Below are positions 13,755 to 27,060 of a DNA stretch of 46,855 nt, in pieces. The notes below the pieces were generated by a model. The model had not been told where the DNA came from. It searched no databases and worked only from the letters and a program-made list of their open reading frames with translations. Made by a program: the position numbers and the translations under genes. Position 1 is the stretch's first letter. Each line of letters starts with the position of its first letter. Source of the stretch: Desulfurococcales archaeon (lineage in GTDB: Archaea > Thermoproteota > Thermoprotei_A > Sulfolobales > AG1); contig WYEN01000078.1 in the NCBI GenBank assembly GCA_009903825.1, forward strand, positions 1 through 46,855. The letters run 5' to 3'.

Positions 13755-14006
13755 ATGGGCAATGTGAGAACCAGAGGCATTAAAGTGATCGCTAGAAAAC
13801 TCCTGTCTTCATATCCCGACTTATTTAAGCCTGATTTCGAATATAATAAAAAACTAGTTGCACAACTAGTTAATACTCGAAGTAAGAAAGTTAGAAATCA
13901 GATAGCCGGTTATATAACACATCTGATCAGAATCCAAGAAAAGCTAAAAAGATCTTTAGAGACACAGTCTATAGAGACTTCTCAGTCACCCTCAGGTGAG
14001 GCTTAA
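13755..14006 (+). CDS. rps17e: 30S ribosomal protein S17e
   Basis: 83 residues with the S17e signature 'MGNVRTRGIKVIARKLL' and 'FEYNKKLV' plus a basic helix-rich body. It is a component of the archaeal small ribosomal subunit. GGAG upstream of the ATG serves as the SD. It is the first gene of a compact run (S17e, zinc protein, MoaD-like, Cgi121), with 1-nt overlap to the next gene. It is divergent from thsB. Confidence 0.95.
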   Translation: MGNVRTRGIKVIARKLLSSYPDLFKPDFEYNKKLVAQLVNTRSKKVRNQIAGYITHLIRIQEKLKRSLETQSIETSQSPSGEA

Positions 14007-14329
14007 TGAAATATAAGACTTGGAAATGTGGCATATGTGGAGAAACCATAATAGAAGGTCAGAGATTCATATTTTTAAGAGAAATAGGTTTTGCCCATCT
14101 AGAGTGTGTTTTAGAGAGATTGACTGAGAAAAATAGTGTGAATAGAGATCTTCTGTCTCTTATAGATGCTAATGAACTTATAACGTATTCGATTATAAGA
14201 CTTAAAGAGTCAGAGACGTTAGCCGCAGATAAAGACATTAAAGAGAAGATTATTAGCGTAAGAAAATCATTAGAGAAATATTCAGTTGAACTCAGCGATC
14301 TTCTCTTCAAATATATGAACTCAGGATGA
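14006..14329 (+). CDS. Small zinc-binding protein, DUF2175-like
   Basis: 107 residues. The N-terminus has C8-x2-C11 ('CGICGETI') and H31-x2-C34 ('FAHLEC'), a treble-clef or LIM-like zinc site, followed by a helical, charged C-terminal half. It matches my recollection of the crenarchaeal DUF2175 family, whose function is unknown. The ATG overlaps the S17e stop by 1 nt, and GGTGA lies 6 nt upstream, so translation is coupled. The position next to S17e suggests a role linked to the ribosome or RNA, as an inference only. Confidence 0.75.
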   Translation: MKYKTWKCGICGETIIEGQRFIFLREIGFAHLECVLERLTEKNSVNRDLLSLIDANELITYSIIRLKESETLAADKDIKEKIISVRKSLEKYSVELSDLLFKYMNSG

Positions 14330-14333
14330 TCTA

Positions 14334-14624
14334 ATGAATAATTTCATTAAAATAAAAGTCAGATACTTAGGCTCTCTCAGCATAGAGATAACATCTGAAG
14401 AGGAATACACATTTGATCAAGAGATATCTCTGAGAGATCTATTGAAAAAATTGTTGGAGAGACATGAGAAATTAGAGAGAGTGATCAGTTCTAAAGGAGA
14501 TCTGAAGCCTGGCTATATGATGTTTATCAACGAGATAGATTATCAATTAATAGGTCTAGATTATGTTTTTAAAGAATCTTCTGAGATAGTGATAATGCCT
14601 ATAAGCCATGGTGGAGATATATAG
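14334..14624 (+). CDS. MoaD/ThiS/Urm1-like beta-grasp protein
   Basis: 96 residues. The pattern 'IKVRYLGSLSIEI', 'LRDLLKKLL', 'MMFINEIDYQLIGLDYVFKESSEIVIMP' fits a ubiquitin-fold sulfur carrier or protein modifier. Such proteins act in molybdopterin synthesis, tRNA thiolation or SAMP conjugation after activation of a C-terminal GlyGly. Here the tail is 'SHGGDI', so two residues follow the GG and would need trimming for activation. The start has a GGATGA motif. The end overlaps the beginning of the next coding frame. Confidence 0.75.
   Translation: MNNFIKIKVRYLGSLSIEITSEEEYTFDQEISLRDLLKKLLERHEKLERVISSKGDLKPGYMMFINEIDYQLIGLDYVFKESSEIVIMPISHGGDI
14610..14616 (+). promoter_or_regulatory. GGTGGAG motif before the Cgi121 frame
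   Basis: Located inside the end of the MoaD-like gene. It places an initiation site at ATA 14621, which overlaps the MoaD stop (ATATAG). No ATG, GTG or TTG is available in that frame until 14804. Confidence 0.4.
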
Positions 14625-15181
14625 AGAGATTATTCTCCATAATCAAGATCTTATCATATTTAGAAAAAAATTGTGTCATCAGATATTATTTTATTGAAAA
14701 GTGGAGTGAAGATCTATGGAAAATCTTTTCTAAAAAATTCTCTGATACGAAGATATATTATCAAATATTCGATCCATATAAAACTCCTTCTCAGAGAATT
14801 TTAATGTACTCCCTCGCACGTGCATTAAGATCTTTTGAGATGAAACAAAATATATCGAGAAACATCAATATTGAGATTCTTCTGATAATCTCCGGCAGTA
14901 GAGATATTAATAAAGCTGTACAAAACCTAGGACCTCGAGTTGGAGACCCGGCTATGCTGACCATCATAAATTGTGAAAAAACTTTTTTGCACCCAGATCT
15001 AGAGTTTAAAGAGATTAAGCCAGTTGATATAGGCTTGGAGAGGTTATTAGAAAATCTTGAGAATCTAAGTAAAACTCTTAAAATCTCTAATGTTCTCTGC
15101 AATGAAAAGAAGGATCTTGGTGAGAGGATACTTTGTATAGAGAAGAATATTATAAACAAGATCTCTTTATTAAGAGATTAG
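14621..15181 (+). CDS. cgi121: KEOPS complex subunit Cgi121, non-canonical start
   Basis: The segment 'QRILMYSLARALRSFE' and 'EILLIISGSRDINKAVQNLG' is diagnostic of Cgi121/TPRKB. This KEOPS subunit binds tRNA ends and stimulates Bud32 in t6A37 tRNA modification. The first ATG in frame (14804) falls inside the conserved core. Coding sequence extends upstream ('IYYQIFDPYKTP' aligns with the family's 'QLFDA' strand). The frame is open back to 14585 but holds no ATG, GTG or TTG. The best-placed initiator is ATA at 14621, 6 nt after GGTGG and overlapping the MoaD stop, giving about 186 residues, normal for the family. A sequencing error or a -1 frameshift from the MoaD gene remain alternatives. 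Confidence 0.8.
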   Translation: MERLFSIIKILSYLEKNCVIRYYFIEKWSEDLWKIFSKKFSDTKIYYQIFDPYKTPSQRILMYSLARALRSFEMKQNISRNINIEILLIISGSRDINKAVQNLGPRVGDPAMLTIINCEKTFLHPDLEFKEIKPVDIGLERLLENLENLSKTLKISNVLCNEKKDLGERILCIEKNIINKISLLRD

Positions 15182-15224: not shown

Positions 15225-15230
15225 TTAAAA

Positions 15231-16049
15231 ATTCTTGTCAAACCTCCGACTAAGATAGATGTGGGCGTGATAGGAGGGTCAGGACTTTATGATCCTGGGG
15301 TTCTAAGAGATGTTAAAGAGTTCAAAATTTATACCCCATATGGAGAGCCTAGCGATAGTATAATTGTAGGAGAACTAGGAGGTAAGAAGGTGGGTTTTAT
15401 CCCTAGACATGGAAGAGGTCATAGGATACCTCCTCATAAAGTAAATTATAGAGCAAATATATGGGCATTAAAATTTTTAGGAGCTAAATATATAATTGCT
15501 GTAAGTGCTGTAGGAAGTCTGAGAGAAGAGTATGCTCCTGGACATCTAGTAGTTCCGAATCAGTTTATAGATATGACCAAAGGTTATAGAGCTCACACAT
15601 TTTTCGAGGGGCCAGTTGTTGCTCACGTCTCAGTAGCAGATCCTTTCTGCGAATATCTTCGAGAAGAGCTTATTAAAGGAGGCAGAGAACTTGGTTATAT
15701 AATTCATGATTCAGGAACATATATATGTATTGAAGGGCCGAGATTTAGTACTAGAGCCGAGTCTAGATTATGGAGAGATGTATTTAAAGCTGATATAATA
15801 GGAATGACATTAGTGCCAGAGGTAAATCTCGCCTGCGAAGCTGAGATATGTTATGCAACACTTGCATTAGTAACAGACTATGATGTGTGGGCTGAAAAGC
15901 CTGTCACTGCTGAAGAAGTATCTAAAGTGATGAGTGAAAATGTTTCTAAGGCTAAAAAAATTCTTGAACTAGTGATCCCTAGATTAAGAGATGAACCGCC
16001 ACACGAAAAATGTTCTTGTTGCAGATCTCATGAGACTGCATTGATCTAG
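15231..16049 (+). CDS. mtnP: S-methyl-5'-thioadenosine phosphorylase
   Basis: It phosphorolyses MTA to adenine and 5-methylthioribose-1-phosphate, recycling a by-product of polyamine and SAM metabolism. Motifs: '[11 protein letters not shown]' (phosphate loop), '[18 protein letters not shown]', 'AVGSLRE', '[15 protein letters not shown]', '[12 protein letters not shown]'. The C-terminus has a Cys-Ser-Cys-Cys cluster like the CXC motif of the Sulfolobus enzyme, which stabilises it at high temperature. Starting at GTG 15261 removes the N-terminal residues that precede the first strand in homologues. Starting at ATT 15231 gives 272 residues, close to the usual 270, and is preceded by GGTGA at the normal spacing. 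The function is certain; the start is an inference. Confidence 0.92.
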
Positions 16050-25792: not shown

Positions 25793-27025
25793 TTATAATA
25801 GTTTTCCGTAGCCAGCTAGCCTCCATCTTCCAGCTACTTGTCTACTTATGGCTACGCTGTTATTTTTAAGAGGTATAGTAGGTTTAGCTAGTACGAGGTC
25901 TAGTATATCATCTCTTATTCTCTCCACTGTTGCATAACTTATCATAGTTCCTATACTTATTAAGATCCTCTCCTTAGGTTTTAAAGATCCTAATTTAATA
26001 GGATCTTTTGTTCCAACAATTCTCTCTAGCAAAGTATATTTGATTGATATGTTATATTCAGGCTCAGGTAATTCACCTGCAAGCCCTACAAAATTGCCTA
26101 CAAGTTTATCTGATTTAGTATAGAACGGATCCAACTCTGTCCCTAATGCCACAAGACCTCCTGGCACAGCATCTTCAAACTCTTCTTCTCCATATCTTAT
26201 CGATACTATCCTAGTATAAAGAGGCTTATATGTAGCTCTTCCACTAGAGTCTTTGATCTCGATGCCAGGTTTGATCTCGATTTCATCTCCGATCTTGAAA
26301 ATTCCTTTCACTACAGAACCTCCTATTATACCTCCCACCAGCTTATCATATGAAGTGCCCGGCTTATTTACGTCAAAACTTCTTGCTATATATAAAAGAG
26401 GCTTCTCGTTAACATCTCTATTAGGTGTAGGCATATACTTCTGGATCGCAGATAACAATATATCTATATTGATCTTGTGAAGAGCGCTGATCGGTATTAT
26501 AGAAGAATCTTGATAGCCCATCTCTTTAATAAAACTTTTGATCTCTTCATAATTTTTCAAAGCCATCTCGCGAGATACAGCATCTACTTTATTTTGAACA
26601 ACTATAACATTTTTAACTCCAATTATTTTAACTGCCATAAGATGTTCTCGTGTCTGTGGCTGAGGACAAGGGTCTGTGGCAGATATAACTAATAAGGCGC
26701 CGTCCATTAGAGCAGCCCCGCTCAACATTGTAGCCATAAGAATCTCGTGTCCAGGCGCATCTACATAAGATACTTTTCTGAGAACAACTGATTCTTTTCC
26801 ATTTGGACATATTTTCTCTGTGACAAAACCCTCAGGATCTCCAAGATCAGGACAGTAGCCTATTATTCCATCAGCATATCCCAGTTTGATCGTCATTGCT
26901 CTCATAAGCTCTTCAGAATGTCTCGCCGTCCATATACCTGTTAATGCCTGAACAAGAGTTGTCTTCCCATGATCTACGTGACCTATAACGCCGATATTTA
27001 TCTCAGGTCTACGCTTTAACTCTAT
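25793..27025 (-). CDS. Translation initiation factor aIF2 subunit gamma, no canonical start codon
   Basis: The GTPase subunit that carries initiator Met-tRNA to the ribosome. G1 ('GHVDHGKTTLVQALTG'), 'GITIKLGY'-type switch ('RAMTIKLGYADG'), 'DAPGHE' and 'NKVD' are all present. The first ATG (26905) lies after the G1 motif, so 40 essential residues are upstream. That frame is open back to a TAA at 27047-27049 but contains no ATG, GTG or TTG. Candidate initiators are ATA 27025 (410 residues, normal length, near the predicted start of a leaderless transcript) or TTA 27019, which sits 6 nt after GGTGT. The zinc knuckle keeps only two of the usual four Cys ('YCPDLG' and 'ICPNGK'). Confidence 0.9.
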   Translation of the reverse strand: MELKRRPEINIGVIGHVDHGKTTLVQALTGIWTARHSEELMRAMTIKLGYADGIIGYCPDLGDPEGFVTEKICPNGKESVVLRKVSYVDAPGHEILMATMLSGAALMDGALLVISATDPCPQPQTREHLMAVKIIGVKNVIVVQNKVDAVSREMALKNYEEIKSFIKEMGYQDSSIIPISALHKINIDILLSAIQKYMPTPNRDVNEKPLLYIARSFDVNKPGTSYDKLVGGIIGGSVVKGIFKIGDEIEIKPGIEIKDSSGRATYKPLYTRIVSIRYGEEEFEDAVPGGLVALGTELDPFYTKSDKLVGNFVGLAGELPEPEYNISIKYTLLERIVGTKDPIKLGSLKPKERILISIGTMISYATVERIRDDILDLVLAKPTIPLKNNSVAISRQVAGRWRLAGYGKLL

Positions 27026-27026
27026 A

Positions 27027-27034
27027 CACCTCTC
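27027..27034 (-). promoter_or_regulatory. GAGAGGTG motif upstream of aIF2 gamma
   Basis: An SD-like sequence one base before ATA 27025 and seven bases before TTA 27019. A TATA-like stretch (about 27051-27060, minus strand) would start transcription close to 27030. Both leaderless ATA and SD-led TTA starts are therefore possible. Confidence 0.4.
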
Positions 27035-27060
27035 TATAATAATTCTTTAATATAAAGCTT

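Follow-up and report, generated by a model that had tools for sequence, protein, structure and literature searches.

The window analysed here is a stretch of 46,855 nucleotides from a heat-loving Desulfurococcales archaeon (contig WYEN01000078.1), and it carries a cluster of genes for ribosomal protein S17e, a DUF2175 protein, a ubiquitin-like (Ubl) protein of the Urm1/ThiS/MoaD type and the KEOPS subunit Cgi121, with a thermosome-like gene upstream of the cluster on the minus strand (Table 1). A preliminary description of this DNA, made from the sequence alone, had called the Ubl gene MoaD-like, and both the Urm1 and the ThiS profiles were indeed matched above cut-off. The Cgi121 frame lies at -1 relative to Ubl and stays open between 14585 and the stop codon that ends at 15181, overlapping the Ubl stop in the ATATAG region as had been described. 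The next gene downstream is MTAP-like; within its frame, the Shine-Dalgarno (SD) sequence GGTGAT points to ATT 15231, and the first canonical start is GTG 15261.

Table 1. Coordinates of the features discussed in the text, numbered from the first letter of the window.
Feature	Position	Strand	Evidence or remark
S17e (ribosomal protein) gene, first of the cluster	13755..14006	+	PF00833, E=1e-15
DUF2175 gene	14006..14329	+	PF09943, E=1e-23
Ubiquitin-like (Ubl; Urm1/ThiS/MoaD-type) gene, ending HGG-DI-stop	14334..14624	+	PF09138 and PF02597 above cut-off
HGG codons CAT GGT GGA, holding ATG 14608 (+1 frame) and GGTG 14610-14613	14607..14615	+	Sequence
Alternative +1 frame from ATG 14608, 29 codons and then TGA	14608..14697	+	
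GGTG, Shine-Dalgarno-like	14610-14613	+	Register offset 14 to ATA 14621
Coding region of the KEOPS subunit Cgi121, with its stop	14621..15181	+	PF08617, PDB profile, AlphaFold2, Foldseek
Putative AUA start of Cgi121, sharing AUAG with the Ubl stop	14621..14623	+	Coincides with ATG+5 of L062
Ubl stop codon TAG	14622..14624	+	Sequence
Seven-A run (A7), likeliest place of an indel if one occurred	14664..14670	+	Sequence, switch-point profile
First in-frame ATG of the Cgi121 frame, within a core helix	14804..14806	+	Sequence, AlphaFold2 model
Phosphorylase (MTAP-like) frame	15225..16049	+	PF01048

The identity of the downstream frame as Cgi121, already proposed in the preliminary description, is firm. 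The frame matched PF08617 (CGI-121) with 28.0 bits against a cut-off of 25, a profile of its relatives matched the Cgi121 chains in the PDB (PF0523, MJ0187 and human TPRKB), and the AlphaFold2 model beginning at 14621 had a mean pLDDT of 93.8, including a confident N-terminal helix at residues 2-17 (pLDDT about 90-95). In Foldseek, all 20 of the PDB matches with E<0.001 were Cgi121/TPRKB entries. The window protein is like other archaeal Cgi121 proteins (MJ0187, PF0523 and that of Saccharolobus islandicus, which is functional; PMC10989989) in sequence profile and fold, but it is divergent in sequence and is encoded without a canonical start codon. A Cgi121 subunit would be expected to bind Bud32 and the 3' CCA end of tRNA, and to be required for t6A. 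A scan of the named genomes with the window protein returned no match. The best explanation of these sequence features is that the gene encodes a functional KEOPS subunit, located downstream of Ubl in the S17e-DUF2175-Ubl-Cgi121 cluster. A decaying pseudogene would also lack a start codon; however, 186 codons are open from 14621 to the stop, the coding score of the core is good, the predicted fold is confident and the frame is the sole PF08617 match in its genome, all of which make decay highly improbable.

Direct reading of the sequence found no ATG, GTG or TTG in the Cgi121 frame upstream of ATG 14804. Counting from ATA 14621, this codon encodes residue 62, and its position inside a core helix, predicted at residues 58-73, makes it an improbable natural start; the earlier observation that the core begins before the only available ATG is thus borne out. 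The reading that we put forward as the likeliest, at roughly even chances, is that translation of Cgi121 starts at AUA 14621. Translation of Ubl would end at TAG 14622-24 and that of Cgi121 would begin at the overlapping AUA, with AUAG replacing the usual AUGA, while the 30S subunit would be positioned by the GGTG at 14610-14613, a sequence supplied by the diglycine codons of Ubl itself. The AUA would presumably be decoded by initiator Met-tRNA, and initiation on Cgi121 would probably be coupled to termination on Ubl. Canonical starts in the window genome (G000) and its congener (G001) have an SD sequence whose register begins 12-15 nt 5' of the codon; for ATA 14621 the offset of GGTG is 14, with a match of only 4 nt, which is weak. 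The confident N-terminal helix of the model beginning at 14621 also agrees with a start there. The GGTGG at 14610-14614, lying 6 nt 5' of the ATA, had been pointed out in the preliminary description and is present. The window Cgi121 accordingly combines the two marks by which candidate near-cognate starts were recognised in this study, the absence of a canonical start at a conserved N-terminus and an SD sequence at normal spacing, the latter being 4 nt long. The arrangement is like that of the overlapping archaeal gene pairs with termination-reinitiation described in PMC10666635, where the downstream start and the upstream stop share a few bases; compared to those pairs, the window has AUA instead of AUG, GUG or UUG.

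The junction between the two genes was compared at loci across the whole order. Ubl and Cgi121 are separate genes in most relatives, and in the commonest unfused state the Cgi121 ATG straddles the codons for H and G in the Ubl HGG, in the +1 frame (cATGGnGG). This ATG, at -8 to the end of HGG, is found in many relatives, including G004 of the window's own family. Other states include short overlaps, such as ATGA or TTGA, and an ATG at +5 in L062, exactly at the site of the window's ATA 14621. That relatives have their Cgi121 start at this junction speaks for a start there in the window too. The homologue of the HGG-borne start codon in the window is ATG 14608, which the preliminary description missed, and its frame stops before the Cgi121 core. 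The main rival reading, if on the unlikely side, is that a one-base indel, arising in sequencing or assembly or by recent mutation, parts the true start at ATG 14608 from the core. The protein would then have MVEIYREI... at its N-terminus, read in the +1 frame, and cross into the Cgi121 frame near A7; in a natural version of the same explanation, RNA polymerase slippage or +1 frameshifting would occur near A7. Besides the position of the ATG in relatives such as G004, codon usage across 14624-14664 gives a weak preference to the +1 frame beginning at ATG 14608 (Bayes factor 3.4 against the Cgi121 frame), the switch-point profile is highest at the A run, and the +1 peptide has YR(D/E) in common with Desulfurococcaceae archaeon AG1 (G002) and G004. 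However, the -1 peptide aligns equally well, and ungapped, with that of the congener, neither codon usage nor the N-terminal alignments settle the choice of frame, and no other frameshift was found among the about 550 conserved genes of the window genome that were examined. Two other frameshift-like matches in that genome were antisense shadow ORFs. In addition, AG1 is start-less independently: only the window and AG1 have side-by-side loci in which the Cgi121 frame is -1 and has no canonical start, and where AG1 has its ATA, its sister G004 has an aligned ATG. The Ubl gene of AG1 (L063) has no ATG, GTG or TTG at its conserved start, with a CTG at SD offset 14.

The preliminary description had offered, as the alternative to an ATA start, a fusion of the MoaD-like protein to Cgi121 that would tie a ubiquitin-like protein to the t6A machine. 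Such a fusion does exist in the congener, where Ubl and Cgi121 form an uninterrupted frame of 283 aa, and in several genera of another family, f2 (L103, L108, L112 and L118); in L103, Urm1 and CGI-121 are both above their Pfam cut-offs. The link is not new, since a Ubl-Cgi121 fusion next to S17e was described in Thaumarchaeota by Makarova and Koonin in 2010 (PMC2948915). The window is like the thaumarchaeal case in having a ubiquitin-like domain with KEOPS Cgi121 beside ribosomal protein S17e, but here a stop codon (TAG at 14622) and the -1 offset split the two, and no continuous Ubl-Cgi121 frame is present in the window; furthermore, the congener and other genera of the order have the in-frame fusion, whereas PMC2948915 listed Cgi121 as absent from that group. 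If two bases (TA) are skipped in the window, the distance from HGG to a conserved Cys is 18 residues, exactly as in the congener, and because this two-base difference restores the spacing it is plausible that a fused ancestor was split at the short repeat.

The same spacing, and the fused frames of the congener, the f2 genera and Thaumarchaeota (PMC2948915), are consistent with the two proteins still being made as one in the window, by a recoding event at the stop codon of Ubl, such as peptidyl-tRNA-Ile hopping +2 from AUA 14619 to AUA 14621, by slippage on the TA run, or with the run being one unit too long in the assembly. Among archaeal genes, fucA1 of Saccharolobus solfataricus has a known -1 frameshift (PMC8211752) and is similar to the window in that two frames overlap by about 40 nt, with the second in -1. 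Unlike fucA1, the window has no A-AAA-AAT site at the overlap, and the second of its frames encodes an entire domain, homologues of which have starts of their own. Direct reading of the overlap (14585-14624) found no X-XXY-YYZ slippery heptamer, the canonical kind for a -1 shift, and local folding gave z = +1.35. A hairpin predicted around the Ubl stop (7 bp, 14611-14617 with 14634-14640) was no better than those of shuffled sequences and was dropped as evidence. With the two genes separate in most relatives and an assembly that is clean, which makes an assembly error unlikely, production of a single fused protein from the window seems improbable.

Fusion of Ubl to other proteins is not restricted to Cgi121. 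At 25 loci downstream of S17e (L013-L017, L020, L022-L029, L032-L034, L037, L043, L045, L058, L059, L067, L071 and L084), Ubl continues in frame, right after HGG, into a phosphoribosyltransferase-like domain, and PF00156 was confirmed at both of the loci tested (L024 and L033). HGG is invariant in the Ubl alignment, and in the window it is followed by DI rather than standing at the very C-terminus, so that a mature terminal GG would need the removal of two residues. A Prok-JAB (JAMM) protein is encoded in both the window genome and its congener, and, order-wide, in 45 of 50 genomes with a long (fused) Ubl frame of at least 240 aa compared to 22 of 86 others, related genomes not being independent. 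According to PMC6043591, Rpn11 processes the ubiquitin precursor of Caldiarchaeum; by analogy, the JAMM protein may cut Ubl after GG, which in the window genome would remove only DI. The recurrent fusion of Ubl to Cgi121 or phosphoribosyltransferase, always after HGG and mostly together with JAMM, suggests ubiquitin-style precursor cleavage in Crenarchaeota.

The start at AUA 14621 gains plausibility from other start-less genes in the lineage. These came from a comparison of the window genome with its congener and AG1, in which conserved genes were sought whose conserved N-terminus lacks a canonical start. In both congeneric genomes the apparent start of the uS3 gene is ATA, preceded by an SD match of 7 nt (GAGGTGA on C14 of the window genome, GGAGGTG on C4 of the congener; L261 and L262), with an offset of 14 in each. 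ATG or GTG stands there in G003 and G005, and likewise in almost every relative from outside the family that could be read; in a sister genus (g2; L264 and L269) uS3 has no canonical start either, and TTC stands at SD distance. Within the window, the gene for aIF2-gamma (25793-27046, minus strand) has no ATG, GTG or TTG before residue 48; its SD sequence GAGGTG points to TTA 27019 (offset 14), ATA 27025 is closer to the SD, and the congener's gene has canonical start codons. A 981-aa gene that is LeuRS-like by eye (C118 in the window genome, C8 in the congener) has TTC as its first codon, at SD offset 14, in the window genome, where it has no canonical start near the conserved N-terminus.

When genes whose canonical start is backed by an SD served as the reference, start-less targets that had an SD themselves numbered 1 of 163 in the window genome, 4 of 180 in the congener and 4 of 74 in AG1, versus 1 of 303 in controls. 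Of the 20 genes in the three family genomes that had an SD match of at least 6 and no canonical start, 16 carried a near-cognate of AUG at offset 13-15 (against a background of 16.5%, P=7e-10), compared to 1 of 7 such genes in the controls; as a rate per gene, the near-cognates amount to 16/1383 in the family versus 1/451 in the controls, which is not decisive. These counts are exploratory, with thresholds that were explored rather than fixed beforehand and with fewer control loci, and only filtered counts were used, because shadow ORFs, and local alignments that extended into leaders, had made the first lists too long. Loss of aIF1 was considered as a cause of relaxed starts and rejected, as SUI1 was found in all 40 of the genomes searched; aIF1 is present in the window's family.

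In Escherichia coli, infC has an AUU start with feedback. The start-less Cgi121 and aIF2-gamma genes of the window suggest, by analogy, the hypothesis of an infC-like feedback; the likeness is that of a translation-fidelity gene without a canonical start, and the difference is that feedback is only hypothetical here. In yeast, loss of t6A nearly doubled non-AUG starts, and t6A has been proposed to prevent the decoding of near-cognate codons by initiator tRNA (PMC4717488). Cgi121, through t6A on initiator tRNA, and aIF2-gamma would both bear on the fidelity of start-codon choice. In Sulfolobus, aIF1 disfavours non-canonical starts according to work cited in PMC6237735. The combined proposal is that the lineage tolerates near-cognates of AUG (AUA, AUU, CUG and ACG) in about 1% or more of genes with an SD at the best distance, and that with Cgi121 and aIF2-gamma among the start-less genes a loss of t6A or of start fidelity would raise their own synthesis; we hold this proposal to be doubtful at present. 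If AUA is used, annotation pipelines that accept only ATG, GTG and TTG would truncate or miss essential genes in an archaeal family (uS3, aIF2-gamma and Cgi121), and start-codon selection in archaea would follow looser rules than those taught. A KEOPS gene with a near-cognate start would also, given the proposed role of t6A (PMC4717488), make the feedback hypothesis directly testable.
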